From Balneolales bacterium (GTDB taxonomy: Bacteria > Bacteroidota > Rhodothermia > Balneolales > Cyclonatronaceae), in the NCBI GenBank assembly GCA_020832405.1, contig JAFIET010000003.1, positions 33,769 through 96,851 of the forward strand: 63,083 nucleotides of DNA, written 5' to 3'. Numbering within the stretch: position 1 is the first letter of the stretch; each line of letters opens with the position of its first letter. Positions 22,727 to 39,996 of the stretch are shown here, in pieces. Made by a program: the position numbers and the translations under genes. Under the pieces are notes generated by a model that worked only from the letters and a program-made list of their open reading frames with translations, was not told where the DNA came from and did not search any database.

Positions 22727-23242
22727 ATGAAACCCTTCTGGTCTGATTTAGGCAAACTCATTTCATCAAAAACTTCTCAGGAGGAAGACTTCATAAAAAA
22801 CGTACAGCTCTTCACGGATCTCACACGAAGGGAAAGACTGAAAGTTGAGCGGCTGATGCACGTGCGGGAATATCAGGCCGGGGAGTACATATTTCACAAG
22901 GGGCAGCCCGGAGCGGCATTTTATGTAATCCGCAGCGGGCTTGTGCGCATCGTAACGCCAGGTGAGCCGCCCATACTGCTGGCAGAAGTAAACCCCGGCG
23001 AGGTGATTGGCGAACTGGCCATTTTAGATGAAACACCGCGCTCGGCAAGTGCCCTCACCGCAGAGCATGCCACAACAATGGCAATTTTCAAAGGGGATTT
23101 TGATGCTTTCATGCTGAGCGAGCCCGTTATTGCGGCAAAAATTTACCGCAGGCTTGCCATTGTGATAGGCAACCGGCTCAAGGCTACCAACGCCATGCTT
23201 CAGAAACAGGCTGCCAAACAGCCCGAAACAAGGCCGGCATAA
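22727..23242 (+). CDS. Cyclic-nucleotide-binding domain protein without DNA-binding domain
   Basis: A 171-residue protein consisting almost entirely of one cNMP-binding domain (about residues 28-145). The phosphate-binding cassette is well kept, GEVIGELAILDETPRSASAL, with the Glu and Arg that contact the ribose and phosphate of cAMP or cGMP in this family. The beta-roll entry YQAGEYIFHKGQPGAAFYVI is also typical. No helix-turn-helix follows, so it is not a CRP-type regulator. Its stop overlaps the start of the PerM-like membrane gene by one base (TAATG), suggesting it regulates that protein. A putative adenylate cyclase is encoded about 9 kb downstream. Confidence 0.9.
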   Translation: MKPFWSDLGKLISSKTSQEEDFIKNVQLFTDLTRRERLKVERLMHVREYQAGEYIFHKGQPGAAFYVIRSGLVRIVTPGEPPILLAEVNPGEVIGELAILDETPRSASALTAEHATTMAIFKGDFDAFMLSEPVIAAKIYRRLAIVIGNRLKATNAMLQKQAAKQPETRPA

Positions 23243-24549
23243 TGGAGAACCCGCAAAGCGAACAGGAGATCAAACGGCGTACCCGCGTTTATGTAGCCGT
23301 GAGCAGTTTACTGCTGATTGTGACTACCGGCTATGTGCTTTGGGCCATCAGGCCGCTGCTGCTGCCCGTTATTTTCGGCGCGCTGCTTGCCTACATCAGT
23401 CAGCCGGTAGTTGCCTGGCTCATCAGGCGCGGCTTTCCGAAACTGCTCAGCGTGCTGCTGTTTGTCACCTTTTTTATCACCCTGCTTTTTTACGCCTTCG
23501 TTTTTGTAAAAAATCAAATTCCGGACCGTAACGAACAATACGAACTCCGCACGGTTGCCATGTATCAGCTCAATGAGCGGTATCAGGGACTGATAGAAAC
23601 TTCACAGCAGAACACGACCCTCGCCTTCGGGCTGCGGTTCCTGATGCAGGAAACGCATCCTCTTGTAGATAACATCAACCTCTTTCTTGCCCTCGCCCCG
23701 GAGGAACAGATGGTTTTCGAAGCCCGCATGGACAGCCTGCAGCATCAGCACCCGCGCTATGCCCGTATGCTGGGCTATCACTTTCAGAATCAGGACCTGC
23801 TGTTTTACACAAGCGGCGGGCTGCTCACCGAAGCCATCCTCATCGGGCAGCGCAGCATTAACAGCCGCGAAGAAACAGGACCGGATCAGACAGGAGGCTC
23901 TACTATTCTGCTCATTTTCGGCTTTTTTTCAACCTGGCTGATCATGCCGGTCATTTTCTTCTTTTTACTGCTTGATGAAGGCAAGTTCAGGCGTAAACTC
24001 ATTTCACTTGTTCCCAACATTTTCTTTGAAACAGCACTTACCTCATTTCACAACGTAGATAAAGCCATAGGCTCCTACCTCCGGGGTACGGTAATTGAAA
24101 GCCTTGCCGTTTTTACATGTTTCCTTGTGTTTCTGCCGTTAATCGGCTTCAACTTTACCGTATCTGTGCTGATCGGGGTTGTAGCAGCTGTAGCGAACAT
24201 TATTCCTTTTATCGGGCCAACAGTTGGCATCATTCTCGTAATTGCATACTCGCTCATCATCGATGAAATCAGCAGCGTGCTGCCGTTCATACACACAGGC
24301 AACCTGGTTTACTTTGCTGCACTTACGGCAATTCTTATTCAGGTTGCTGATAACACCCTGCTTAAACCAATGATATTAGGCGGTGCCACAGACCTTCACC
24401 CAATACTTGTATTTTTTGTAGTTGTAGCCGGAGGGGTTATGTTTGGGTTTTGGGGTGTACTTTTTTCGATACCTGTAATTGTTATTATTAAGGTTAGCGC
24501 CACAACAATACATCAACGGCTGTTGCTTTACCGCATAATTCGTTTGTAA
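23242..24549 (+). CDS. AI-2E/PerM family membrane transporter
   Basis: A 435-residue integral membrane protein of the AI-2E family transporter superfamily. N-terminal helices (VYVAVSSLLLIVTTGYVLW, PLLLPVIFGALLAYISQPVV, LLSVLLFVTFFITLLFYAFV) are followed by a soluble loop of about 150 residues that is longer than usual. The conserved C-terminal membrane block follows (IGVVAAVANIIPFIGPTVG, HPILVFFVVVAGGVMFGFWG). Members export or exchange small molecules or ions; the substrate cannot be predicted. It is translationally coupled to the cNMP-binding protein gene, which points to cyclic-nucleotide control of transport as a hypothesis. Confidence 0.88.
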   Translation: MENPQSEQEIKRRTRVYVAVSSLLLIVTTGYVLWAIRPLLLPVIFGALLAYISQPVVAWLIRRGFPKLLSVLLFVTFFITLLFYAFVFVKNQIPDRNEQYELRTVAMYQLNERYQGLIETSQQNTTLAFGLRFLMQETHPLVDNINLFLALAPEEQMVFEARMDSLQHQHPRYARMLGYHFQNQDLLFYTSGGLLTEAILIGQRSINSREETGPDQTGGSTILLIFGFFSTWLIMPVIFFFLLLDEGKFRRKLISLVPNIFFETALTSFHNVDKAIGSYLRGTVIESLAVFTCFLVFLPLIGFNFTVSVLIGVVAAVANIIPFIGPTVGIILVIAYSLIIDEISSVLPFIHTGNLVYFAALTAILIQVADNTLLKPMILGGATDLHPILVFFVVVAGGVMFGFWGVLFSIPVIVIIKVSATTIHQRLLLYRIIRL

Positions 24550-24799
24550 GGCTTACGCTTTTACCGTTTGTTTTCTGTAAAATCCCTATGGTGCAATCAG
24601 AACGGCATCGAACCGGTTTTTCCACATACAGGCCCTAATTTATATTGAATTAACCCTTTATTTTACATACTATCCTATTATACCAAACAACAAGACTTTG
24701 ATTATGGAAAACATATTTTTTTCCTTTACATCAGCTAAAAAGTTTCAGGGCGAGCCTGTGCTAAAAACACCTTCACTAAAAATCAAAAACATACCTGCC

Positions 24800-25708
24800 A
24801 TGTCTATCACTGTAAAATTCACTGCTTTGCTGTACCTCGTGCTTTTATTGGTATTTAGCCCTTCGCTTCAGCCACTTATGGCGCAGCCAATCCTGAATAA
24901 TAATGATGAACTGCTTTCGGAGGGGCGCTTTATGTTGGGCCTGAGCGGCATGGACTTCACATTCCGCGACCATGCTTTGCTTACGGTTGGGGGTGAAAAC
25001 AGCTTCACCTATCAGTTTAACGGTGATGTTTACAATGCCTTTATCGGCAGCGGCAAATTCTCCGGTATCAGCATCGGATATGGCACAAGCACCGAAACAT
25101 TTTTCTCCTCCTCACTTGCTGACGCCCTTCTTGGTTCTGAAGGCCCTGCAAATGAAGCCGATGTACGCTTTCTGAACATCAAAGCAAGTCTCGGCGGTAA
25201 CAGTCAGCTTTGGCAAAATATACTTTCGCAGGATTTAAACCTATACCTGCCAATTCGGGTGCACATCAACTTCTTCAATATTTATTATGATGCTGACGAT
25301 GCCCTGCGCGAGGTATTTAACCTTAATTTTCAGGATAATTTCCGTCCTCTCAATAAACTTGAAAGCTCGTTTAACATCGGGCTGGGTGTAAATTACCGCA
25401 CCGACCGCTTCTTCCCGCTGCTTCAGGACCGCCTGCTGTTTGACCTTCATTTTAGCAGGGGCCTTGGTGCAAATGTACAGTACACCGACGGAGACATGTT
25501 TTACGGCGGTGCGCGCCATGATGAAATAAATGGTTCTGTACACATCCTTCGCATTCTCGGCCAAACCTCTATTGTTACCGGATTCCGTCAGATCAAAGGG
25601 TGGTCAATTCAGGATGGATTTGATGACTTTTTCTCCATGCTTAACGACAGCGATGTATTCGATTCATCACACAGTTCTTTGATGTTTTTTGTCGGAATCA
25701 AATTTTGA
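24800..25708 (+). CDS. Predicted outer-membrane or periplasmic barrel-like protein, unknown family
   Basis: A 302-residue secreted protein. The frame opens at 24698, but a good signal peptide begins at the internal ATG at 24800 (MSITVKFTALLYLVLLLVF, cleavage near LMAQ), so I use that start. The mature part has many alternating aromatic and glycine residues (FMLGLSGMDFTF, FSGISIGYGTSTE, FNIGLGVNYRTDRFF, LLFDLHFSRGLGANV) and ends in Phe (LMFFVGIKF), as outer-membrane barrels do. I do not recognise the family. It precedes the NHL/TPR operon by about 190 bases and may or may not be linked to it. Confidence 0.65.
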   Translation: MSITVKFTALLYLVLLLVFSPSLQPLMAQPILNNNDELLSEGRFMLGLSGMDFTFRDHALLTVGGENSFTYQFNGDVYNAFIGSGKFSGISIGYGTSTETFFSSSLADALLGSEGPANEADVRFLNIKASLGGNSQLWQNILSQDLNLYLPIRVHINFFNIYYDADDALREVFNLNFQDNFRPLNKLESSFNIGLGVNYRTDRFFPLLQDRLLFDLHFSRGLGANVQYTDGDMFYGGARHDEINGSVHILRILGQTSIVTGFRQIKGWSIQDGFDDFFSMLNDSDVFDSSHSSLMFFVGIKF

Positions 25709-25894: not shown

Positions 25895-28800
25895 ATGAGC
25901 CGTATGAAAAACCTGCGCTTACTTATCACCTTAACAGCCATAGCTGTACTGTGCCCCGTTGCAGCGGCACAGCAGTATGTCCAAACCCTGCCAAACCCTG
26001 CCGACGCAAGTGAGGCTTCTATCCGAAACCTTTCCGATGCTGTAAGGGATGCTGCAGGCAATTACTACCTGCTTGACAGCCGCAACGGAACCGTAATTAT
26101 GCTCAATTCTGCCGGTGAGCTGATTGAAGTTGTTAATGCTTTTGTAGGGCCGGCCGGCACCGTGCAGCTGCGAGGCCCGGTACGGATTGAAGCCGGTCCG
26201 GATAACCGGCTTTACATCGCAGACGACCGAAACAACGAAATTTATGTGCTCGAAAACCTGCAGTACATTCATAAAGCCGGCGAATCGGGCAGGATGCCGG
26301 GTCAGTTCAGCCGTATTTCAGATATCGCAGTTGACGCCGATAACTACCTTTATGTGCTCGACGAACGCGCCGGCAGGGTTGATATTTTCGATTATAAAGG
26401 GCGTTTTATTAACTGGATCGGCGGCCCGGAAAGAGGTCAGCCAAGGCTTTTTGAAAATGTTGCCGGATTGGGAATAAATGGTGCAAATCAGCTGTACGTA
26501 CTTGAGAGCAACCCGGCGAGGCTCCACATCTTCTCGGATTCCGGTCAGCACCTGCGAAGCTTCAACGAGTTGGGAAGTGCCGGCAGTCAGCTTCAGAATG
26601 CCGGTTCACTCACCGTATTTCGTAACGGACACTTCAGTATTCTCGATAAAGATTCGGGCACATTCAGCACTTTCAATTCAGACGGAGAGTTTCTGCAGCG
26701 TACAGGCCGAAGCGCGCGGGCAAGCTCACCGGGCATATTCCGGGATCCCTCTCTGCTGCGCACAACAGGTGTTAACCCGAACAGTCTTTTGGTTATAGAT
26801 AGCGGGGCATCAAACATACAGGAATACGTTTATGCATTTCCGGCTGCCGATTTCTCCCGGACCGAAAAAATTCAGCTTGAACTGGTTTCTACCTCCCTCC
26901 CTCGCTTCCATGACGCTGTATTTGCTCCTAACGGGGTGATGTATTTTATCCCTGACGGCGATCAGAGTATTGTTGTAGCACTTGATCTCGATTCCGGCGA
27001 GCAGCTTTTCCGGCTGCCGGCACAGCGGGCACACAGGCTTGCTACCGACAGCCAAAGCCGGGTTTATGTGCTCGATCAACACCGGCGATCTAACGAAATT
27101 AATGTTTTCAACAGTCAGGGTGTGCTCGAGCTTAGCCTTGGCAGGGATATTCCAAACCCTCTTCAAAGTCCCGAAGCACTTGCTGTAAAAAGCGATGGCA
27201 CCATCATCGTTGCGGATGCTTCACACGACCGGCTGCACAGCTGGGCCCGAAACGGCGAGTACCTTGGCGATACCATTTCACTGCGGCAGTTCAATTACCG
27301 CTCCATTTCTTTCATTCGTACAGACAGCAGAGATAACATTTACCTGCTCGACAGCAGCGACAATGAAATTTACCGACTTAATGCCGCCGGTATGCTCACC
27401 GATCCGCAGCCGCTCACTGTAAAGGGCTACAACCCTGCAAGGGGTAATGCCGGTATTGTATGGTTTGATATAGATCAGTCTGATCAGCTTCACCTTTTTA
27501 ACAGTGAGACCCTCCAATACTATCTGTTCGAATGGGAACCGAGCATACAGGTAATTAATGCGCCCAAACTGTTGTTTAAGTTTGGCAGGGAAGGCAGCGA
27601 CGAGCTTTCTTTCAGCCGTACCGGAAGCGTGGCGCTCAACCCCTATCAGCTTACGGCACATATCAGCAACGACCGGGGCAGGCAGATTAAATCAATTGGT
27701 ATTACGATACGACCGCCCAAACCGGACCTTGAGCTGTTTGCTTTTTCGGTTGATGGAGAAGGCTTCCTGCACATAAGCCCAAAAGCAGGTTTTGATGGGG
27801 TAACGAGCAGCTTCAGTCTTGCCGTTGAAAACCCGGAAACCGGAGCTATTGAAATCATCAGTTCTGATAACCAAACCATACAGGTACGGTACGACGGGCA
27901 GCGCAATCAGCTGCTGAATTACCGTATTCTGGGGGCAAGCGCCGGAAACCTGAGCGAGCCAAGTGAACCCTTCAGCGATTACATCGGGTATGGCCGGTAC
28001 CTTGCTTCGCAGGAGCTTTTTGTGCATGCCCTTGAGCAGTACTCCCGTGCTCCGGCTTACTACCTCAACCCGCAGCCGGAGCTGGTTAATCACATTGCCC
28101 GTGAATACATCCGCTGGGGGCAAACCCTAACCAACCGTGGTGAAGCTTACCTCACAACCCTGATACTGCGCAATGCTGCGGCCCTGCTTGATGATCGCGA
28201 CCCCCTAACCCGGAACATCAGCGAAGTGCTCATCACCCTGTATAACACGCTCGGCCGCCGGGGGGCATACGACGTGCTGATTGAAAGCACCGACAACCTC
28301 ACGGGCATCACAAGCCCTTCTGTAGTAGATGAAGTAAGCCGCACCATCGGTCAGGTTGCCGGTAATATGGCCCGCACCGGCGTTGAGCAGCGAATCCTGC
28401 AGAGCATCGATTTATATAACCGCATGCTCGACTGGGCCGAACGGCCCGAATGGGCGCTAACCGGGATGGCCGCTGCTCAGCTGGCCTATTATGAGCTGCT
28501 TGAGCGAACCAACGCGCCATATCATCTCACAAGCCTTCGCCTGAACCGCGCACAGGCCGCGATAGATGAAGCACTCGATAAAATCCGGCTCGTGAATGAC
28601 TTATACAACGAAAGCCGCATTCTTCAGATCAGAATCCTGAACAATCAGGGGCGGTATGAGCAGGCAATTGAAATTACTGAACAGGAACTCACCGATCAGA
28701 TTCCCGGCCTCGACCGGCGCTTTGAGCGGGACTACCGCTATCATGGCGGCGCTGCTATGATAGCAGCCGGCGAGTATAACCGCGCCGTTTTCAACTTCAC

Positions 28801-30919
28801 CGAACTGCTTCAGCTTGATCAGAATAACGCGCAGGTACAGCTGATGCTCGCAAATGCATTCTATAGTGATCAGCGCTATGCAGAAGCACAGGGAATCTAC
28901 CGGGAGTTGCTGCTGCGTAACCCCGATGAAGCCATCTATCAGGGATTACTCGGGCGTACGGAGCTTGCCCTGGGTAACTACGCTGAAGCTTCTTTCCAGC
29001 TGGAGCAAGCCATCCGGATTAACCCTGCTGTTAACTGGTTTTACGGTGAACTTGCACGGGCTTTTTATATGGATGGCAAATACACCGAAGCCCTGGGGTA
29101 TTTTGAACTCAGCGTAGCCGAAACACAGGCCCGCCTGGCAGCGGCACGTCAGCGTCAGCTGCCGCAGCCCGCACAGACGGAAATCAGAGCCGAGCTCGAA
29201 ACCTATCTGTTTGAGCAGGGCCTTGCTGCAACCCGCATCCGCAACTACGACACCGCTACTCAGGCCCTGCGAAGCCTGGTTGAACTAACCCCTTCGAACG
29301 CGAAATACTGGTTCGAGCTGGGTAATGTGTATGTCAATACCGGACTCGTGTATCAGGCAGAAAATGCGTTTTCGCGTGCCCTTTCCATTGATTCCCAAAA
29401 TGAAACCTACCGCAACGCCTTCAATCAGGCCCGGCAAAACAGCGATGAATATGCAACCAATCAGCCGCCGGCACGCATCCTGAGTGTGCAGGTAAACCCT
29501 GTTTTCCCGTCTGTTTACAGAAATTACACCGAGGCACAGTCGATTGGGCAGCTTGTAATTGAAAACAATACGGCATCGGTAATTACCAATGCCCGGCTTG
29601 AGGTTTCCTTCAGCCGCTTTGCTGCCGAAAGCTACTTCATCGACCTGCCGGTGATGTCGCCCCGAAGCAATACCACCGTTCCGCTGTTCATGGCTTTCAC
29701 GAGCGACATCATGAGCAACGATTCCGACACCAACGCGCAGCTCACCCTCAACCTGATTTACAACCACCGTGGCGAAGCCCTAACCGATGTGAGCAACGCA
29801 AATGTTACCATACATCGCCGCAGTGCCATCAGCTGGCGCGACAAGCGCAGCCTGGCAGCTTTCATCTCGCCCGGCAGTGAAACCATCAGGCAGTTTGTAT
29901 CAGAAATAAACTCTAATCTCGAGCCTTTTTCTGACCGTAATTTGCCGGAAGCCATTGCAATCGGAGCCCGGCTCTACAGCACCCTCAATAACAGCGGCTT
30001 CGTGTATCAGCGCGACCCGAACATCGAAACCATTTTAACAAGCGGTGTACTTGATGATATTCAGTTTCCGGCCGAAACCCTAACACTCCGCAGTGGTGAA
30101 TGCGACGATTTCGTGGTACTGTTTTGCAGCCTGTTTGAAGCGCAGGGCATACGAACGGCTTATATTGATGTGCCCGGGCACGTGTTTATGGCATTCGATA
30201 CCGGCCTCACACCCGACGACCTAAACTTTATGGGCCTTGATGCAAACCGCTTCATCACATACGAAAACAGACTCTTCCTTCCTATCGAAACAACCCTGCT
30301 TGGGCGCGGCAGTTTCATGCAGGCATGGGAAAACGCCGCCCTAAGGTGGCAACAAGAGCGCGAAGCAGGCAACATGCCGCAAATCGTACCGATTGATCAG
30401 GCACACCGGGTATATGCACCATCCGAATTTGTACCGGCTGACTTCAGGTCACCGCTGGTTTTTAGCGATAACCTTATTGCCGACTACAACTTCACCCTGC
30501 AACAGGTATTCAATAATTTCAATGCCGGAATGATTCAAAGCATTGAACAGCGCCTGATTGCAGAACCTGAAAACCTGTTTTTGGTAAATCAGCTGGGGGT
30601 GCTGCTGGCCAAAACCGGCGATACTGAAAAAGCCCGGGAAGTTTTTGAGCGCGGACTTGAAATTTTTCCGGCAAGCCCCCAAATCAACAATAACCTGGGT
30701 AATCTGTACTTCGAAGCGCGCAACTTCATTAAAGCAGCGGAACATTACCGCAAAAGCGCTGAAGCAAACAGCAACAACGCCAACGTTTATGTAAACCTGG
30801 CACGGGCCTTGTTACAGGCGGGTCAGACCGAGCCCTCACGCGACGCCATGCGGCAGGCCCTGCGTATCGATCAAGATGTACGCACCCGTTACGACTTCAT
30901 TTTTAACGAGCTATTCTGA
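25895..30919 (+). CDS. Large secreted NHL-repeat / TPR / transglutaminase-like protein
   Basis: A 1674-residue protein with a signal peptide (about residues 4-30, ending AAAQQ). Residues about 35-560 hold NHL beta-propeller-like repeats, each with motifs such as LYIADDRNNEIYVL, LYVLDERAGRVDIF and IYLLDSSDNEIYRL. A possible Ig-like segment follows, then TPR helices over about 690-1180 (YNRAVFNFTELLQLDQNNAQ, GNYAEASFQLEQAIRINP). After a strand-rich region comes a papain-like transglutaminase core with SGECDDFVVLF (Cys1403), VPGHVFMAF (His1429) and LPIETTL (Glu1465). More TPRs end the protein. It overlaps the FecR-domain gene by one base (TGATG). It is likely a periplasmic or surface sensor/scaffold; its function is not established. 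Confidence 0.85.
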   Translation: MSRMKNLRLLITLTAIAVLCPVAAAQQYVQTLPNPADASEASIRNLSDAVRDAAGNYYLLDSRNGTVIMLNSAGELIEVVNAFVGPAGTVQLRGPVRIEAGPDNRLYIADDRNNEIYVLENLQYIHKAGESGRMPGQFSRISDIAVDADNYLYVLDERAGRVDIFDYKGRFINWIGGPERGQPRLFENVAGLGINGANQLYVLESNPARLHIFSDSGQHLRSFNELGSAGSQLQNAGSLTVFRNGHFSILDKDSGTFSTFNSDGEFLQRTGRSARASSPGIFRDPSLLRTTGVNPNSLLVIDSGASNIQEYVYAFPAADFSRTEKIQLELVSTSLPRFHDAVFAPNGVMYFIPDGDQSIVVALDLDSGEQLFRLPAQRAHRLATDSQSRVYVLDQHRRSNEINVFNSQGVLELSLGRDIPNPLQSPEALAVKSDGTIIVADASHDRLHSWARNGEYLGDTISLRQFNYRSISFIRTDSRDNIYLLDSSDNEIYRLNAAGMLTDPQPLTVKGYNPARGNAGIVWFDIDQSDQLHLFNSETLQYYLFEWEPSIQVINAPKLLFKFGREGSDELSFSRTGSVALNPYQLTAHISNDRGRQIKSIGITIRPPKPDLELFAFSVDGEGFLHISPKAGFDGVTSSFSLAVENPETGAIEIISSDNQTIQVRYDGQRNQLLNYRILGASAGNLSEPSEPFSDYIGYGRYLASQELFVHALEQYSRAPAYYLNPQPELVNHIAREYIRWGQTLTNRGEAYLTTLILRNAAALLDDRDPLTRNISEVLITLYNTLGRRGAYDVLIESTDNLTGITSPSVVDEVSRTIGQVAGNMARTGVEQRILQSIDLYNRMLDWAERPEWALTGMAAAQLAYYELLERTNAPYHLTSLRLNRAQAAIDEALDKIRLVNDLYNESRILQIRILNNQGRYEQAIEITEQELTDQIPGLDRRFERDYRYHGGAAMIAAGEYNRAVFNFTELLQLDQNNAQVQLMLANAFYSDQRYAEAQGIYRELLLRNPDEAIYQGLLGRTELALGNYAEASFQLEQAIRINPAVNWFYGELARAFYMDGKYTEALGYFELSVAETQARLAAARQRQLPQPAQTEIRAELETYLFEQGLAATRIRNYDTATQALRSLVELTPSNAKYWFELGNVYVNTGLVYQAENAFSRALSIDSQNETYRNAFNQARQNSDEYATNQPPARILSVQVNPVFPSVYRNYTEAQSIGQLVIENNTASVITNARLEVSFSRFAAESYFIDLPVMSPRSNTTVPLFMAFTSDIMSNDSDTNAQLTLNLIYNHRGEALTDVSNANVTIHRRSAISWRDKRSLAAFISPGSETIRQFVSEINSNLEPFSDRNLPEAIAIGARLYSTLNNSGFVYQRDPNIETILTSGVLDDIQFPAETLTLRSGECDDFVVLFCSLFEAQGIRTAYIDVPGHVFMAFDTGLTPDDLNFMGLDANRFITYENRLFLPIETTLLGRGSFMQAWENAALRWQQEREAGNMPQIVPIDQAHRVYAPSEFVPADFRSPLVFSDNLIADYNFTLQQVFNNFNAGMIQSIEQRLIAEPENLFLVNQLGVLLAKTGDTEKAREVFERGLEIFPASPQINNNLGNLYFEARNFIKAAEHYRKSAEANSNNANVYVNLARALLQAGQTEPSRDAMRQALRIDQDVRTRYDFIFNELF

Positions 30920-31665
30920 TGAAAACAACACTGAACCTCAATCAGCTCTTTTGGGTCACATGCAGCATAATGCTGGCTGTCAGCTGTCCGGCAAAAGCAC
31001 AGCAACCGCCCCCCGGAGGCACGCAGGTACAAACTGAAGTAATCGGCACCCTCAGTTTTTTTCAGGGTAGGGTGATGATTTTTGTGGATGATGAATGGCG
31101 GCCTGCCACCATCAACCTGCCGCTAACAGCAAGCCGCCGGATACAAACCGGCCCTGCATCACAGGCTGAAATCGAATGGCGAACCGGCGACACCACCGTT
31201 ATCGGAAGCAATGAAATGCACAGCCTCGAAGCCCTTTATGTGGCTTTTCAGCAATCATCCTCACGGCAAACTGAAGGAGTCTTCAGCCGATTCAGGTCTA
31301 TGTTCAGGGGGGAAATAGCTGATTCGCGACAAGCCGAGGGAGGTATTCGTCGCGACCGGGCAGAAGTTGAACGAAAGCCCAGCCCTGGCGAACTCTACTG
31401 GTATGAAGACCCTCAGGTTGACATCGCCGATATTTTTGAACTCTACGACAGCGGTGAATACCGGCAGGCGCTTGCAAAGCTAAGCCTGTTTACCGAACAG
31501 CAGCCGCGCAGCCCTTTTATGCGGGAAGCCCTGTTCATGATGGGGCACTGTTTTATTGAACTCAACAACATCCCTCAGGCACGGGAAACCTTCAACCGCA
31601 TCGTAACACTGTTCCCGGGGGAAGCTATCTCAGCTGAAGCCCGCGAAGTGCTGCAGCAACTGTGA
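30919..31665 (+). CDS. FecR-domain and TPR-like periplasmic protein
   Basis: A 248-residue protein with a signal peptide (about residues 1-28, ending AKAQQ). The first domain resembles FecR: IGTLSFFQGRVMIFVDDEW, then ASRRIQTGPASQAEIEWRTG with the typical pattern of an imposed threshold and residue-rich strands. Residues about 165-248 form TPR-like helices (LYDSGEYRQALAKLSLFTEQ, LNNIPQARETFNRIVTLFPG). It is translationally coupled to the preceding giant gene and ends 10 bases before the CHASE2 cyclase. FecR-domain proteins commonly relay envelope signals. Here it could link the giant protein to the periplasmic CHASE2 domain; that is inference. Confidence 0.8.
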   Translation: MKTTLNLNQLFWVTCSIMLAVSCPAKAQQPPPGGTQVQTEVIGTLSFFQGRVMIFVDDEWRPATINLPLTASRRIQTGPASQAEIEWRTGDTTVIGSNEMHSLEALYVAFQQSSSRQTEGVFSRFRSMFRGEIADSRQAEGGIRRDRAEVERKPSPGELYWYEDPQVDIADIFELYDSGEYRQALAKLSLFTEQQPRSPFMREALFMMGHCFIELNNIPQARETFNRIVTLFPGEAISAEAREVLQQL

Positions 31666-31675
31666 GCCTTCTGTA

Positions 31676-33979
31676 ATGATATCAGGGGTCAATTTTCGTC
31701 TGCCAACAGGAAAACCTGGCTGGAAACTGCTCAGTTTCGTGATGATCTGCATTCTGTCGCTGTTTATCACACAGGCTTTTTCATGGGTGAACCACAACCT
31801 CACCCGCTCCCCGCTTACCGCCATTGACCTGGCCGTTGATGACCTGGCCCTGCAAATCCGCACCTTTACCGGGCAGGACAAACGCGTTTCAACACGGGAT
31901 TTCGTAATTATCGACATCGACGACTATTCCATATCTCAGCTGGGCCGCGTGCAGCTGTGGCCGCGCATGTATGATGCACAGGTGATCCGGAACATCAGCG
32001 CCGGGACCCCCAAAGTGATGCTGATTGACGCCCTCTACACCGAAGCCGACACCCTGCCGGGCGCATACGTGCAGCTGCTCACCGACCGCGGCTTCGGGCA
32101 GGCCGCCGATATCGTGAGCGCCATGAGCACCGATCACATCCTGGCCGAAGCCATTCAGCAGGCCGGAAACGTGATCCTCGGCATGTTCGATAAATCTGCC
32201 GACTTCACGGATGACGAGCGGGAATATGCACTTCGCGCCGAGCAGCTGCTGCCCCGTATCAGTGGAAACCGCCGGTCTGCCTTCGGCTACTATCAGCGCA
32301 GCGTACCCGTGCTGCCATCCCTCGCCTTTGCTGAAAATGCCCGGGCAATGGGACTGCTGAAAGTGAACCCCGACCCTGACGGCACGGTACGTTCGTACAC
32401 CCTGCTACAGCAAAGTCCGTTTCTTACGAGTGAAAGTACCAGTGATCATATCCGCCTTATCCCGTCTTTCATACTGCCTGCAGCACTCAATTTTCTGGGG
32501 CTAAATGACGAAGATGTCCGTACATCAAACACAGGTATTTACCTCGGGCCGGATATAAGAATCCCGGTAAACCCACGTGCCGAATTCAGTATAAACTGGC
32601 TGGGTTCCGGAGAAGATTTCCGCTACATCTCATTTTACAATGTGTGGAGCGGACAGGTACCCAAAGAGTTCTTCAACGACAAAATTGTATTTATAGGCAG
32701 CAGCGCCGCCGGCCTCGAAGACCTCAAAAACACACCCGTCAATCAGGTAATGCCCGGGGTTGAGGTGCACGCAACGGCCCTGTACAACCTGCTCAACGAA
32801 AGCTGGCTACGGCGTATAGACGATACCGGACTCATGTGGCTGCTCGCCGGCTTTGTCCTCTTTAGCACAGCCCTGTTTCTGTTTCTGCCCCAATGGCAGG
32901 CGCTCATCGCAGTATTCCTGCTCATTGTGCTTCAGTTTTTTGGCTATGTGCTGATGATTGTGCCTGAGCTAAAAATCCTGCTGCCCCTTTCAACCGTTGT
33001 GACCCTCACCATCAGCTCTTTCACCCTTTCGCTGGTGTACCGCAACGCGACCGAAGGCCGCGAAAAGCGGCAGCTCAAGCTGGCGTTTTCCTCCTACGTT
33101 TCGCCTCAGATTGTGGATGAGCTCATCGAGACCGGGCGCGACCCGCAGCTGGGTGGTTCGGAGAATGAGATTTCGGCTTTCTTCAGCGATATTGAAGCCT
33201 TCTCCCGGATTTCGGAAAAACTCTCGGCGCCTCAGCTCGTTGAGCTGATGAACGAATACCTGGACGCCATGACCTCCATCATCACCGAAGAGCGCGGCAC
33301 GCTCGATAAGTATATCGGGGATGCCATTGTGGCCTTTTTCGGCGCACCGCTCAAGGTAGATGATCACGCGCTGCGCTCCTGCATCGCGGCCTGCCGTATG
33401 ATGCAGGCCGAATCGGACCTCCGGCTAAAGTGGCAGGAAACCAAGCAGGGCTGGCCGCCGGAAATCCTGAAACTGCGCACCCGCATCGGCATCAATTCGG
33501 GCATGGCGGTAACCGGTAACATGGGCTCTTCCAAACGCTTCAACTACACCATGATGGGCGACACCGTGAACCTTGCTGCCCGCTGTGAGAGCGCCGCCAA
33601 GCAGTACGGCATCAGCGCGCTGGTTTCCGAGAGCACCCGCGACGCCGCCATCAAGGCAGGTGAGGACTGCGTATTCCGCCGGCTCGACCGCGTGACCGTA
33701 GTGGGCCGAAGCACCGCAGTGGAGCTTTACGAACTTGCCGGGCTTCGCGCTAAGGTCACCAAACAGCAGCTAAGCTGCATCGAAGCCTATGAAAAAGGCT
33801 TTGAAGCTTATCTGCAACAAAGTTGGGAAACGGCCGTGAGCTGTTTTGAGCAGGCGCTTGAGCTGGAAAAAAGCCCGGAACTGAATCCCTCGGCGCTGAT
33901 GCTCCGCCGCTGCGCGCAACTCCAAAAAGAGCCGCCGGGCAGCGACTGGGACGGCGTTTTTAACCTGAAATCCAAATAA
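31676..33979 (+). CDS. CHASE2-domain class III adenylate cyclase
   Basis: A 767-residue membrane cyclase. An N-terminal helix (about residues 18-36) is followed by a periplasmic CHASE2 sensor (about 45-375; DFVIIDIDDYSISQLGRVQL, FNDKIVFIGSSAAGLEDLKN). Three transmembrane helices lie at about 384-455. The cyclase catalytic domain (about 495-680) keeps metal ligands Asp505 (AFFSDIEAF) and Asp549 (YIGDAIVAFFGAP), the purine-specifying pair Lys545 and Asp629, and transition-state residues Asn632 and Arg636 (NLAARCES). The Lys/Asp pair favours ATP as substrate. A TPR-like helical pair ends the protein. It follows the FecR-domain gene by 10 bases in the same operon. Confidence 0.92.
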   Translation: MISGVNFRLPTGKPGWKLLSFVMICILSLFITQAFSWVNHNLTRSPLTAIDLAVDDLALQIRTFTGQDKRVSTRDFVIIDIDDYSISQLGRVQLWPRMYDAQVIRNISAGTPKVMLIDALYTEADTLPGAYVQLLTDRGFGQAADIVSAMSTDHILAEAIQQAGNVILGMFDKSADFTDDEREYALRAEQLLPRISGNRRSAFGYYQRSVPVLPSLAFAENARAMGLLKVNPDPDGTVRSYTLLQQSPFLTSESTSDHIRLIPSFILPAALNFLGLNDEDVRTSNTGIYLGPDIRIPVNPRAEFSINWLGSGEDFRYISFYNVWSGQVPKEFFNDKIVFIGSSAAGLEDLKNTPVNQVMPGVEVHATALYNLLNESWLRRIDDTGLMWLLAGFVLFSTALFLFLPQWQALIAVFLLIVLQFFGYVLMIVPELKILLPLSTVVTLTISSFTLSLVYRNATEGREKRQLKLAFSSYVSPQIVDELIETGRDPQLGGSENEISAFFSDIEAFSRISEKLSAPQLVELMNEYLDAMTSIITEERGTLDKYIGDAIVAFFGAPLKVDDHALRSCIAACRMMQAESDLRLKWQETKQGWPPEILKLRTRIGINSGMAVTGNMGSSKRFNYTMMGDTVNLAARCESAAKQYGISALVSESTRDAAIKAGEDCVFRRLDRVTVVGRSTAVELYELAGLRAKVTKQQLSCIEAYEKGFEAYLQQSWETAVSCFEQALELEKSPELNPSALMLRRCAQLQKEPPGSDWDGVFNLKSK

Positions 33980-34017
33980 ATGAAACACAGAACCCTATCA
34001 AGGAGCACCGGCAGCGC

Positions 34018-34860
34018 ATGATCCGAATCGAATTTCTGGGCGTGAGGGGGTCTGTTCCCACTCCCGGCCGGCAAACGCTGGCCTACGGCGGAAACACATC
34101 AGGTGTGCTGATTAGCTTCGGTAATTCTCCGCACCATCTTTTTTTGGATGCCGGCACCGGTATCGTTGAAGCCGGCAACCGGCTGGTTTCCCGCTCTGAA
34201 GCCATTGAAGGCCGCATCCTCATCACCCATGCCCACAGCGACCATATTCAGGGCATTCCGTTTTTCAAACCGCTGTATCAGCCGCAGCATCAGTTCAGCA
34301 TCCACATGCCGGAACAGGCCGGCCAAAACTGTGAGCAGGTTCTCAAAATGCTGATGGCCCCCGCCTTTTTTCCCGTCAGTACGGATGCCTTCAACGCAAA
34401 AATCAGCTATGAAACCCAGCAGCCGGGCACGACAGCGTATCCGGAAGGTTACAGCGTCACTTCGCTGAAAGCGAACCACCCCGGCAACACTTTCATGTAC
34501 AAAATAAGGATTGGAGATACCGACATCGTGTACTGCCCGGACAATGAGTTCATTCCGGACGATAAGGCCATGCGCAGCAGCATGTTTGATTTTTTTGAGG
34601 GATGTGATCTCGTGATTCACGACAGCCATGAGTCGCGGCTCAGTTATGAGAAAAAACGCGGCTGGGGGCACTCTGCCTGGGAAGATATAGCCGAACTTGC
34701 CTATGAAGCCGGTGTAAATCAGCTCTACCTCACGCATCACGCGCCTGAATCGACCGATGCCGATCTTGATCAGCGGCAGCAGGCCCTCAGCATGATGACC
34801 CGCCGCCCGCCGGTCGCACTCTTCGCCCGCGAGGGGCAGACGGTAGAGCTGAACAGCTGA
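34018..34860 (+). CDS. MBL-fold metallohydrolase
   Basis: A 280-residue beta-lactamase-fold hydrolase. The start IRIEFLGVRGSVPTPGRQTL and the metal motif ITHAHSDHIQGIPFF (His71, His73, Asp75, His76) are clear. Later ligands lie in KANHPG, VIHDSHE and LYLTHHAPE. A good AAGGAG ribosome-binding site sits 12 bases before the ATG. The family includes phosphodiesterases acting on RNA, phosphonate intermediates or cyclic nucleotides. Lying 38 bases after a class III cyclase, it could degrade the cyclic nucleotide, but that is a hypothesis from position and fold only. It may be the last gene of the 25895-34860 operon. Confidence 0.85.
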   Translation: MIRIEFLGVRGSVPTPGRQTLAYGGNTSGVLISFGNSPHHLFLDAGTGIVEAGNRLVSRSEAIEGRILITHAHSDHIQGIPFFKPLYQPQHQFSIHMPEQAGQNCEQVLKMLMAPAFFPVSTDAFNAKISYETQQPGTTAYPEGYSVTSLKANHPGNTFMYKIRIGDTDIVYCPDNEFIPDDKAMRSSMFDFFEGCDLVIHDSHESRLSYEKKRGWGHSAWEDIAELAYEAGVNQLYLTHHAPESTDADLDQRQQALSMMTRRPPVALFAREGQTVELNS

Positions 34861-34913: not shown

Positions 34914-36233
34914 TCAATGCACCTCAAGTAAACCCAAGGTGATATCATCGCTCTGGTCGGCCTGCCCGCGGTGCAGGTCAACGTCGGTCAGTAAGTCGCT
35001 CAGCATTTGCCCGGCCCCGCCGCCTGCGGTGAAGCCTCCGGTGAGGCGCAGCAGCATCCGCTCGGCAGTGTATTCTTCCATTTCGGGGTTCATCGCTTCT
35101 GTGATGCCGTCGGTGAAAGCCACAATCACATCACCCGGCTGCAGGCTCACTTCCTCTGATTCGTACGGAAGCGCCATCACCCCAAGCATCAGGCCGCCTT
35201 TTTCGAGCGTGAACGCGGGTTTGGGCTCCGTATCCTTCCGGAATAAAAAAACCGGATCGTGTCCGGCAGAGATGCTGATCAGGCTTTGTTTTTCTTCATC
35301 CAAAAGACAAAACCAGCCCGTCACAAATTTATCCGGCGTTGTGGATTCAATCAGGAAGGCGTTCAGCGACTCCACAAAATGCTTCAGGCTGAAGGTTTTT
35401 TTGTGAATGATGAGGTAGCTGTGCGTGAACGAGTACACCGAGGAAACAATGAGCGCGGCGGAGATGCTCTTGCCGGTTACGTCGGTAATAAAAAACAGGG
35501 CCTGCGTATCGCTGATGCGGATCAGGTTGTAGTAGTCGCCGCCCAGGTGTTTGGCGGGCCGAAGCAGCGTTTTCACGGTAAAGCCGCGCAGCTCCGGCAG
35601 GGTGCCGGGCAAAATCTTCCGCTGTATAGAGCGGGCCGTTTCCAGCTCGGTGTGCATCTGCTCAGCCTCGACCTCGAACTGACCCAGCCGGTAGTTTTCA
35701 ATGGCGATGGCGCACTGCCCCGCAAGGGCTGAGAAGAAAAGCTCATCCTGCGTATCGAAGCTGCCGTCGTTCGATTTGTTCATCACCTGAATAACCCCGA
35801 TCAGTTCGCCCTTCCGCACCATGGGCGCACACAGCATGTTGCGCGTCACAAAACCGGTGCTCTGATCAAATGCGGAATTGAAACGCGCATCGGCGTAGCA
35901 GTCATCGATGCGCACTGTTTTCTTATGGGCCGCAACCCATCCCGCTATGCCTTCACCCATCCGCACTTGCCTCGATTTGATGAGGGTGCCCTTCTCCCCT
36001 TCGGCTACATAGAAAGTCAGTTTGCAGGTCTCATCGTCAAAAAGAAGCAGGGAGGAAGCCTCTGAATCGAGTAGTTTTTTGCTGGTATCAATGATGCTTC
36101 TCAGAAGTTCAGGCAGCGGTTTCTTTTCGATGATCTGATTCGAAATATCCTTAAAAAACAGCGTTTTGCGAACCAGGCTTTTAAAGGTGACGCAGTCTAA
36201 ACAGTTATGTTGGGTATCGTCAGTTAGATACAT
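34914..36233 (-). CDS. GAF-domain SpoIIE/PPM serine phosphatase
   Basis: A 439-residue RsbU-like protein. An N-terminal segment with two cysteines (HNCLDCVTF) precedes a GAF sensor (about residues 40-190; DSEASSLLLFDDETCKLTFY, VRMGEGIAGWVAA, VIQVMNKSNDGSF). A short coiled-coil linker (ETARSIQRKILPGTLPELRG) leads to the SpoIIE phosphatase domain, whose metal sites are HLGGDYYNL, FFITDVTGKSIS, VAFTDGITEAM and QSDDITL. Such proteins dephosphorylate anti-sigma-factor antagonists. No partner anti-sigma or STAS gene is seen nearby. It is convergent with the MBL gene, so it may be only a neighbour of the cyclase operon. Confidence 0.9.
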   Translation of the reverse strand: MYLTDDTQHNCLDCVTFKSLVRKTLFFKDISNQIIEKKPLPELLRSIIDTSKKLLDSEASSLLLFDDETCKLTFYVAEGEKGTLIKSRQVRMGEGIAGWVAAHKKTVRIDDCYADARFNSAFDQSTGFVTRNMLCAPMVRKGELIGVIQVMNKSNDGSFDTQDELFFSALAGQCAIAIENYRLGQFEVEAEQMHTELETARSIQRKILPGTLPELRGFTVKTLLRPAKHLGGDYYNLIRISDTQALFFITDVTGKSISAALIVSSVYSFTHSYLIIHKKTFSLKHFVESLNAFLIESTTPDKFVTGWFCLLDEEKQSLISISAGHDPVFLFRKDTEPKPAFTLEKGGLMLGVMALPYESEEVSLQPGDVIVAFTDGITEAMNPEMEEYTAERMLLRLTGGFTAGGGAGQMLSDLLTDVDLHRGQADQSDDITLGLLEVH

Positions 36234-37188: not shown

Positions 37189-39996
37189 CTATTTCAGCAG
37201 CAGCATTTTTCCGGTCAACACCCGGCCTGCAGCGCTCAGGCGAACGAGGTAAACCCCGGATGCAAGTCCTGCTCCGCTAAACACCGCTTCATGCCGCCCC
37301 GCACTTTGTTCAGCGTCAACCAGCAGGGCTACACGGCGCCCGGTTACATCATAAACCGTGAGCCGCACCCGCGTTTGCGTGTCAATTTCATAGGGGATGA
37401 CGGTCTGCGGGTTGAAGGGGTTCGGGTAGTTGTTACCCAGCACGATGCGGAAAGGCAGCTGATAGCCCGGCGGCGGCTGTGTTGCGGCGTCGGGGAAGCG
37501 GGTCGCAGCGACATCCATAAACAGCATCTGTCCGGAAGTCCAGGGCGTGAGGCCGCCGTCGCTCTGCGAGTACCGGTAGGTCGGCGGCTGCCCCGCGCTT
37601 TCGAAGCTCCGGCTGAGCAGCTCGGCGGTGAGCAGGGAAGCCGGCAGCCGGTCCGTATCAAGGGTGATGCGAATGCCTGCTTCAAGGCCGGGGTTCAGGA
37701 AAATGCCGATGTTTCTGAGATCCAGCGGCACTTCGTTGAAACTGCGGATGTCCGCCAACGGCACACGGACAGCATTGCCAAGGGTGCGCACAACGCGGCT
37801 GCCGTCAGATGACAGCTCCACCAGCTCAGCAATCAGCGCCGGATCGCTGCCCTGCGGGAAGCTGAGCACCCCGGTATGAATCGTAGCCCGGTGCAGCAGC
37901 CCCGCCATACGAGGCAGCCGGTAAACAAACCCGTTGCCGGAATCCAGCAGAAGAGAAGCCGTGCCGGACTGATTCAGCGTGCCGTGATGCCACAGGTGCA
38001 GGGTCGTGAGCTCTTCGAGCGCGTTGCCGTCGGGCATGGCAGCCAGGGCGCTTACGACATCAAGCTTGCCCATGCCCCAGCGCGGGTGCGGCACAGGGCC
38101 GGTGAATGCATCCGTCCGGGCACCGTTCACCAGCGCTTGCTTGATGGTCGCCTGCGTGGCATCGGGGAAAGCCTGAAGCATCAGCACCGCGGCCCCCGCC
38201 GCAACCGGTGCCGCCATACTCGTGCCCGCCAGCCACACGTAATCGCCCCCGGGCTGGGTCGCGTTGCCCGAATAACTGCTGTCGCGGGAGCGCGCCGCGG
38301 CCACAAATCGCCCGGAAGCCGCAAGCTCGGGCTTCATCCGCCCGTCGCGGGTCGGGCCCACGCCCGTAAAAAAGGCCAGGCTGCCCACCGGATTCGACTC
38401 CCGCTGGAAAACCAGTCCGCTTTGGGTGAGCCAGTTGTTCTGCATCACATAGCCGCCGGTTGTGAGTACCGACCGGCCTGTGCCCGGCGTCGTTATCGTA
38501 AAATCGGTACTCGCCCCCTGCTGCGAAATCGTTTCATTGCCCACCCGGTTAAACACCATCCATGATTTAAACGGCCCGTCGTAGCCTTCAATGCTGATGC
38601 GCCAGACGCCGGCTGCGGGCGGATACTGGAGCTCATCATCCCCCACATAAAAAATCATGCGCCGGTGACCGTTGGGCTGATGGATGTAATTCTCGCCCTC
38701 AATAAAACCTTCTTCGGTTGAAGGGGCAAGTCCGAAGCTGCCGGGCTCCCATTCGTAAACGATGCCGGCGGGGGTTGTTACCCGCAGCGTAGCCGGGGCG
38801 TCGGTATCGAGCCAGATATCGAGCAGCAGGCGGTCGTTGAACGGCCCGGGGCGCGGCGTGTACGCGGGGATATTCAGGATGATGTCGTCGGTGCCCGCCT
38901 GCCCGCCGAAGTAGCGCAGCTCGGCACCGTTGTTTCCGGCCGCAGTTACCATCATCACGCCGGGGTTTTGGGTGACCTCATCCATGGCGCGCTCGGTAGC
39001 CTCGGTGCCGTCCCGGGCATGGAACAGGCCTCCGATGCTGAAATTAGCGACGATCGGCCGGCTGTAGGTCTCGCTCAGACTTGCCGAAAACTGCACGGCA
39101 TTGATGATATTGACTCCGGTGAAGGTCTGATTTCCGCCTTTGATGATCACAAGGTCGGCCTCCGGCGCGATACCCGGCAGGTCGGGTCCGCCGCCTGCCA
39201 TGATGCCCGCCACATGCGAGCCGTGCCCGTTCGTATCCCGTGAGCGGATGTTTTCACCGGCAGCGAGGGCAGCTTCGATATCAGCACGGCTGAAGAGCAC
39301 GCCGTAATCGAAGGGCGGGGGCGGCGATTGCTCGCCGGCCTGCGGCACGAGGGTCTGATCCCACACATATTTGATGCGCGAGCGCAGGGAATCGGCCGGG
39401 TGACGGAATGCGGGATGGGTGATGTCGATGCCGGTATCGAAGATTGCCGCCATCACCCCGGCGCCGGAGAGGGCGGTTTGGTTCCACAGGCCCTGATGCA
39501 GGGCGTCGGCGCCGCTTTCAGCACGGGCGCGGTTGCCGGTTGGCTCGTGCATCGCGGCAGGCTCAATCCAGCTGAAGCCGCCTGAAGCCACAAGCCCGAG
39601 CAGCTCAGCGTGTGTGAGCCGCAGCGCGTAGATGCCATCCGCAGCGCGCATCCGGCGCCCCGGGAGCCGGTCGCCCGGCCCTGCCCCGCTTGTGTACACG
39701 ATGAGGTCGTAGGTAAGCCCCGGAGCTTCATCATCCCCAAAAACCCCGCGCTGTGCCGTCTGCTGCCGGTGGCGGGCATCCTCAAGTCGTTCCTCCGGGT
39801 GCTGCAACAGCCGCTGCACCAGCGGATGCAGGTCGGCCCGGAAGCCGGCACCGCGCTGCTGCACGCTTTCATCGGGGGATAGCCCCCTCACCCAGTCCAG
39901 ACTTGTGGCTGCCTGCTGCGCTGCCAGAAATGCGGGCAGGAGCGCAAAGATCACGAGCAGGGAGACAAAACGGAAGCTATGAGACAAAAACAGCAT
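37189..39996 (-). CDS. Secreted subtilisin-like (S8) serine protease with C-terminal sorting domain
   Basis: A 935-residue secreted protease. A signal peptide (about residues 1-26) precedes a propeptide-like region. The subtilase triad is Asp187 (AAIFDTGIDITHPAF), His258 (TNGHGSHVAGIMAG) and Ser593 (LAGTSMAAPVAAGAAV), with the oxyanion Asn in VTAAGNNGAELR. The His-Ser distance of about 335 residues is roughly twice the usual and marks an inserted domain. The end is a PNPFNP sorting domain (GNNYPNPFNPQTVIPYEIDT, ...ASGVYLVRLSAAGRV), typical of type IX secretion substrates. Extracellular protein degradation is the likely role. It stands alone on the minus strand, divergent from the cysteine desulfurase gene. 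Confidence 0.93.
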   Translation of the reverse strand: MLFLSHSFRFVSLLVIFALLPAFLAAQQAATSLDWVRGLSPDESVQQRGAGFRADLHPLVQRLLQHPEERLEDARHRQQTAQRGVFGDDEAPGLTYDLIVYTSGAGPGDRLPGRRMRAADGIYALRLTHAELLGLVASGGFSWIEPAAMHEPTGNRARAESGADALHQGLWNQTALSGAGVMAAIFDTGIDITHPAFRHPADSLRSRIKYVWDQTLVPQAGEQSPPPPFDYGVLFSRADIEAALAAGENIRSRDTNGHGSHVAGIMAGGGPDLPGIAPEADLVIIKGGNQTFTGVNIINAVQFSASLSETYSRPIVANFSIGGLFHARDGTEATERAMDEVTQNPGVMMVTAAGNNGAELRYFGGQAGTDDIILNIPAYTPRPGPFNDRLLLDIWLDTDAPATLRVTTPAGIVYEWEPGSFGLAPSTEEGFIEGENYIHQPNGHRRMIFYVGDDELQYPPAAGVWRISIEGYDGPFKSWMVFNRVGNETISQQGASTDFTITTPGTGRSVLTTGGYVMQNNWLTQSGLVFQRESNPVGSLAFFTGVGPTRDGRMKPELAASGRFVAAARSRDSSYSGNATQPGGDYVWLAGTSMAAPVAAGAAVLMLQAFPDATQATIKQALVNGARTDAFTGPVPHPRWGMGKLDVVSALAAMPDGNALEELTTLHLWHHGTLNQSGTASLLLDSGNGFVYRLPRMAGLLHRATIHTGVLSFPQGSDPALIAELVELSSDGSRVVRTLGNAVRVPLADIRSFNEVPLDLRNIGIFLNPGLEAGIRITLDTDRLPASLLTAELLSRSFESAGQPPTYRYSQSDGGLTPWTSGQMLFMDVAATRFPDAATQPPPGYQLPFRIVLGNNYPNPFNPQTVIPYEIDTQTRVRLTVYDVTGRRVALLVDAEQSAGRHEAVFSGAGLASGVYLVRLSAAGRVLTGKMLLLK

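Follow-up and report, generated by a model that had tools for sequence, protein, structure and literature searches.

The window (the whole stretch of DNA that was analysed, 63,083 nt) carries four plus-strand genes in close succession. The first encodes a giant secreted protein and is followed by genes for a FecR-like/TPR protein, a CHASE2 cyclase and an MBL-fold hydrolase. The giant and FecR-like genes overlap by one base, 10 bases separate the FecR-like gene from the cyclase gene, and 38 bases lie between the cyclase and MBL genes. ORF coordinates, lengths and spacing agree exactly with those given in an earlier note on this DNA. The features considered here are:

22727 to 23242, plus strand: stand-alone cyclic-nucleotide-binding protein, 171 aa (Pfam cNMP_binding); candidate cAMP effector
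23242 to 24549, plus strand: AI-2E family (UPF0118) transporter (Pfam AI-2E_transport), overlapping the cNMP-binding gene; candidate output
24698 to 25708, plus strand: 336-aa protein, probably exported, family unassigned by Pfam/NCBIfam; homologue in the sister genome
25776 to 25801, no strand: perfect inverted repeat, 11 bp with a 4-nt loop, read from the sequence
25895 to 30919, plus strand: giant, secreted, 1674 aa; NHL beta-propeller, TPR array, beta-rich domain, transglutaminase-like domain, C-terminal TPR
29795 to 30439, plus strand: transglutaminase-like domain of the giant, residues 1301-1515
30919 to 31665, plus strand: FecR-like/TPR periplasmic protein, 248 aa; FecR-like beta-domain, BamD/CpoB-like TPR, conserved GGIRR motif
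31676 to 33979, plus strand: putative CHASE2 receptor adenylyl cyclase, 767 aa (Pfam CHASE2 and Guanylate_cyc)
31811 to 32854, plus strand: CHASE2 extracytoplasmic domain of the cyclase, residues 46-393 (Pfam)
33161 to 33730, plus strand: class III catalytic domain of the cyclase, residues 496-685
34018 to 34860, plus strand: MBL-fold hydrolase, 280 aa (Lactamase_B_2); candidate cAMP phosphodiesterase

The inverted repeat lies inside the 186-bp gap 5' of the giant gene and may be an operator or a terminator. Promoter and terminator scans of the locus gave signals near chance level, so that the case for transcription as one unit comes from the gene spacing. The 336-aa protein matched nothing in Pfam or NCBIfam, and its homologue, at the same position in G001, has so far been seen in that sister genome only. 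A subtilase of family S8 is encoded at 37189-39996; its C-terminal sorting domain, of the Por secretion type, marks it as a probable substrate of type IX secretion.

The giant starts with a signal peptide, seen directly in its translation. Pfam detected NHL repeats (2.8e-10), 6-bladed propellers were among the matches, and many TPR families matched as well. In the window's own protein the transglutaminase-like domain scored just under the Pfam cut-offs, both for DUF553 (20.1 bits, cut-off 20.5) and for Transglut_core (PF01841; 18.4 bits, cut-off 23). Transglut_core matched 32 of 35 homologous giant domains at E<=0.1 (best 4.7e-6), and Cys1403 (in GECDD), His1429 (in VPGH) and Glu1465 were invariant in 52 of 52 aligned sequences. 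This conservation suggests that the giant retains an intact transglutaminase-like active site, and we propose a Cys-His-Glu triad with Glu as its third residue. The region was modelled with a pLDDT of 92.8.

LapG is a periplasmic cysteine protease of the transglutaminase superfamily that acts in a second-messenger pathway, under c-di-GMP control through LapD. It was also the closest PDB profile match to the giant's domain (4u65), at a non-significant E of 0.58. The two share a similar GDC[ED]D motif, whereas the proposed third residue of the giant is Glu, not Asp. A structural search of the PDB with the giant's C-terminal model returned match lists filled by TPR proteins. The giant may be a cysteine enzyme, possibly protease-like as LapG is. 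It was absent from the viral contigs searched.

The earlier note had called the 248-aa protein a FecR-domain/TPR protein. The TPR part of this label holds, as the translation and Pfam revealed a signal peptide and BamD/CpoB-like TPR. Pfam FecR (PF04773), in contrast, gave no match at E<=1 in this protein or in seven homologues. The protein's profile nevertheless resembled true FecR proteins (hhalign 95.3%, E 2.2e-8, with two FecR templates checked, both exceeding the Pfam FecR cut-off), and its structure model has a beta-domain at residues 41-102 followed by TPR helices. These likenesses point to a FecR-like protein rather than a FecR protein, and we keep to "FecR-like" because all eight members stayed below the Pfam FecR gathering score.

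The third protein matched CHASE2 at 2.1e-46 (159 bits, Pfam cut-off 26.3) and Guanylate_cyc at 3e-22. The metal residues D505 and D549, the adenine-type purine pair K545 and D629, and the transition-state residues N632 and R636 are all present, as the earlier note had read them, and all six are conserved in nearly all cyclase homologues linked to a giant. The enzyme is therefore of the adenylyl type by its residues and is predicted to make cAMP. The genome holds one class III cyclase and one CHASE2 protein, both of them this protein; since no second class III cyclase exists in the genome, loss of the gene should abolish the class III source of cAMP. An anti-phage reading was set aside: NCBIfam ProA (39.7 bits, cut-off 1500) and the Pycsar models match shared domains only. 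The cyclase domain matched PycC models at 6e-23, as expected of class III domains, and the giant, FecR-like and MBL proteins had no match to Pycsar effector models. Literature searches on ProA found nothing informative.

The earlier note would have been refuted by a gene order that relatives do not share; for genes 1-3 they do share it. Giant, FecR-like gene and cyclase followed one another again in G001, G006, G010, G293, G097, G019 and G392, with giant identity down to 22%. Scanning genome contigs with the giant alignment yielded 80 named giant-family loci. Their record titles comprise Balneolia, Chlorobiales, Flavobacteriales, Ignavibacteriales/Melioribacter, Calditrichaeota, Cloacimonadota, Desulfuromonadales/Desulfobacterales, Beta- and Gammaproteobacteria, Nitrospirota and Elusimicrobia. 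Neighbouring genes were called with our own profiles for NHL, transglutaminase, FecR-like, CHASE2 and cyclase domains. A CHASE2 cyclase adjoined the giant in 59 of the 80 loci, that is, in 59 of the 65 with enough flank; most of the 21 loci without one run into a contig edge, and six with enough flank lack it (L083, L091, L094, L112, L113 and L146). As genomes of the phylum have only 0-3 cyclase matches each, this adjacency is far beyond chance.

Two gene orders were observed. Giant, FecR-like, cyclase is the order at 16 loci, in Balneolia, Chlorobi/Ignavibacteria-type and Flavobacteriales records. At the other 43, from Pseudomonadota and Desulfobacterota-type records, the cyclase comes first and is followed by the giant and often by a small TPR protein, with genes that overlap or are mostly less than 130 bp apart. 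At Pseudomonadota and Desulfuromonadales loci, at most the TPR part was recognisable in the protein encoded next after the giant. Cultured bacteria such as Hylemonella and Curvibacter are among the carriers of the unit.

A search with the transglutaminase domain gave the same picture in the phylum sample. By hand count, there were 18 matches below 1e-50. All came from cyclase-bearing genomes, which make up 80 of the 296 sampled, and 14 had a cyclase within ~2 kb. Giant and cyclase distances were correlated over 53 loci (r = 0.97) and also within the two order groups (r 0.66 and 0.94), with 0/1000 Mantel permutations; these values still include the species tree. Genes 1-3 are thus a real conserved unit across many phyla, whereas the MBL gene and the upstream cNMP-binding gene, which the earlier note had linked to them, lie outside this widespread unit.

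Some loci depart from these arrangements. In a Calditrichaeota record (L083:9908-17531), the giant and FecR-like genes are followed by a Schlafen AlbA_2/NB-ARC/TPR protein instead of a cyclase. The giant gene of a Gallionellaceae MAG (L139:9749-13588) is in two ORFs, possibly through a frameshift or an assembly error. Balneolaceae-type relatives (L062:1402-7199 and L059:6575-12320) carry a unit of FecR, a 900-945-aa protein and a CHASE2 cyclase; the protein in the middle drew no match from Pfam and is distinct from the giant.

The MBL protein matched Lactamase_B_2 (Pfam, 1.5e-16) and has an HxHxDH motif, seen directly as THAHSDH. A homologue stands beside the triad in G000 and G001 only, and the whole regions of these two genomes are syntenic. 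MBL and cyclase nevertheless go together. Within the phylum, MBL homologues occurred in 58 of 80 cyclase genomes versus 18 of 216 without a strong CHASE2-cyclase match, and within the order in 31/31 cyclase-bearing versus 4/11 cyclase-less genomes. The same was seen inside genera: in genus g13, MBL was present in 4/4 cyclase genomes versus 0/6 without cyclase, and in the window's genus both genes are present in G000 and G001 and both are absent from G002, G004 and G005. Three genomes (G006, G009 and G010) have the cyclase and no MBL, and two of these are <90% complete. Moreover, on a plasmid of Ensifer sp. PDNC004 a gene for a CHASE2-type cyclase overlaps an MBL gene, the product of which is 36% identical to the window's; a cNMP-binding gene is nearby, as are divergent FecR and TPR genes. 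The Ensifer cyclase presumably contains CHASE2, as the alignment extends to query residue 78.

In G293, the MBL homologue (L221:2033-3274) carries a response-regulator receiver domain fused to its N-terminus. MBL homologues of other relatives have N-terminal extensions similar in size to this domain.

The MBL gene hence appears to be a local addition to the unit, tied to the cyclase by co-occurrence and by the independent Ensifer pair. The earlier note had suggested that its product might remove the cyclic nucleotide. The phylogenetic profile, the Ensifer linkage and a weak likeness to the cNMP-phosphodiesterase model cyc_nuc_deg_phdiest (NF041851; 40.7 bits) speak indirectly for this, although the score is far under the curated cut-off of 400, and we consider the protein to be probably a phosphodiesterase that removes cAMP. 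It is a substantial alternative that the protein is another hydrolase, RNase Z-like or acting on a small molecule, which a rearrangement placed 3' of the cyclase gene. Its top NCBIfam scores were with RNase Z models (all far under cut-off), its linkage to the triad is confined to one genus, and the 18 MBL-positive genomes without a strong CHASE2-cyclase match would also fit this explanation. The concordant presence of MBL and cyclase within genera, the Ensifer linkage, the receiver-domain fusion in G293 and contiguity with the cNMP-binding gene in G007 argue against it, and favour the phosphodiesterase.

The earlier note also named a cNMP-binding protein upstream as a possible effector. This 171-aa protein (Pfam cNMP_binding, 2.1e-20) is without a DNA-binding domain and contains the motif GELAILDETPRSAS, which was seen directly and resembles a cAMP phosphate-binding cassette. 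It is one of five cNMP-binding proteins in the genome. The adjacent gene encodes an AI-2E transporter (Pfam AI-2E_transport, 9.5e-39). Among the genomes searched, strong homologues of the cNMP-binding protein occurred only in G001, G006, G007, G010 and G293, always next to AI-2E, and in 6/6 genomes that have a strong homologue the AI-2E gene comes directly after the cNMP-binding gene. In G007, a relative from the same family, this pair and the MBL gene form one contiguous run; in G010 the pair has a cyclase fragment nearby. Linkage at the family level and co-occurrence with the cyclase give indirect support to the proposed effector, which is nonetheless outside the widespread unit. The overlapping, always-paired genes suggest a cyclic-nucleotide-controlled transporter. 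Some members of the AI-2E family are AI-2 exporters. Another, from a halophile, is a Na+(Li+)/H+ antiporter (PMC5379678).

A GAF-SpoIIE phosphatase gene is located at 34914-36233 on the minus strand of the window. In G007 (L217), too, such a gene adjoins that for the cNMP-binding protein; in G010 (L218) it lies between the latter gene and the cyclase fragment.

The view that this combination had not been described as one system proved too strong, as comparable clusters have been published. Passages of an mBio 2022 survey (PMC9239204) describe Campylobacterota clusters of a CHASE2 adenylate cyclase, a FecR-domain protein, a TPR protein and a cAMP phosphodiesterase, which are said there to spread across phyla by HGT. 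Compared by description, a CHASE2 cyclase with a TPR protein is common to both. The window's FecR-like protein has a profile-profile FecR match only and no Pfam match, and the window's candidate phosphodiesterase is an MBL hydrolase. Those passages do not name the fold of the Campylobacterota enzyme, nor do they mention NHL or transglutaminase domains.

In S. meliloti, CyaD1, CyaD2 and CyaK are likewise CHASE2 receptor cyclases encoded near a large envelope or FecR protein, and convert an outside signal into cAMP (PMC5498481, PMC7529298). The outer-membrane protein NsrA, encoded next to CyaK, is needed for signal perception (PMC7529298); this gene pair was also seen here. NsrA is an outer-membrane beta-barrel and the window's giant is transglutaminase-like. 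The S. meliloti effector is the CRP-type regulator Clr, the FecR and TPR proteins are its targets, and SMc02178 is also listed in the system. Magnetospirillum MtxA resembles the window in its signal peptide, its C-terminal TPR domain and the position of its gene, immediately 5' of one for a CHASE2 adenylate cyclase, but is a 34.7-kDa protein in which an Ig-like domain precedes the TPR, and there is no giant (PMC4439547). Burkholderia BiofilmReg has, like the window, a gene for a FecR-domain periplasmic protein 10 bp upstream of a CHASE2 sensor gene, but its FecR protein is of the LysM-FecR type, its output is a histidine kinase/response regulator, and giant and MBL are absent (PMC5192318). In the open-access literature we found no relevant report of CHASE2 and transglutaminase in one system or of an NHL/transglutaminase/TPR protein with a cyclase. 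Simpler versions of the gene set are therefore already described, and for a transglutaminase-like giant as partner of a CHASE2 cyclase no description was found in that literature.

Because the gene set is kept together in many phyla, the triad is probably an outside-to-inside signalling device, and its cyclase is most likely a receptor cyclase for an envelope signal. We think it reasonably probable that genes 1-3 form one envelope-signalling module acting via CHASE2 on cAMP, with the cNMP-binding/AI-2E pair as readout and the MBL protein for removal. We infer the protein contacts, the direction of signalling, cAMP production, phosphodiesterase activity and the transporter's place as output as follows. 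The giant, with its propeller, TPR and transglutaminase-like domain, and the FecR-like/TPR adaptor would sense or process something in the envelope and act on the periplasmic CHASE2 domain, which would control cAMP synthesis by the cytoplasmic class III domain. In the window's lineage, the probable reader of cAMP would be the stand-alone cNMP-binding protein, with its partner, the AI-2E transporter, as the pathway's output, and the MBL hydrolase would be a brake that probably removes cAMP. A bolder version, which we regard as improbable, is a cross-phylum class of receptor cyclases in which the giant's transglutaminase-like enzyme modifies either the FecR-like adaptor or the CHASE2 domain, by cleavage or cross-linking. 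The level of cAMP in the cytoplasm would then be set by this covalent step in the envelope, and in the window's lineage the cNMP-binding protein would gate AI-2E with no transcription factor involved.

It is also possible, if rather doubtful, that CHASE2 binds the signal directly and that the giant and FecR-like proteins, engaged in envelope or surface remodelling, stand at the receiving end of the cAMP pathway, as outputs or feedback targets. The S. meliloti FecR protein SMc02177, encoded beside a CHASE2 cyclase, and the TPR protein SMb20495 are cAMP-regulated (cAMP/Clr targets) and dispensable for signal perception (PMC5498481). A transglutaminase-like enzyme with a long TPR array would also suit the processing of surface proteins, and most CHASE2 cyclases of the order come without a giant. 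A mere target, however, would be less expected than a partner in a complex to form a tight unit with the cyclase in two gene orders and many phyla, and NsrA-CyaK is a case of a large envelope protein beside a CHASE2 cyclase that acts as a sensor (PMC7529298). That the four genes are mere neighbours with no common function is very improbable: synteny within the genus proves nothing alone, given that the region is found in full in the sister genome, but retention of the triad across phyla makes this unlikely for genes 1-3.

CHASE2 is a common extracytoplasmic sensor domain, the signals of which are almost unknown. The conserved unit described here names two periplasmic partners of a CHASE2 cyclase, one of them with an invariant, putative cysteine-enzyme active site, and so opens the switching of CHASE2 receptors to concrete tests.
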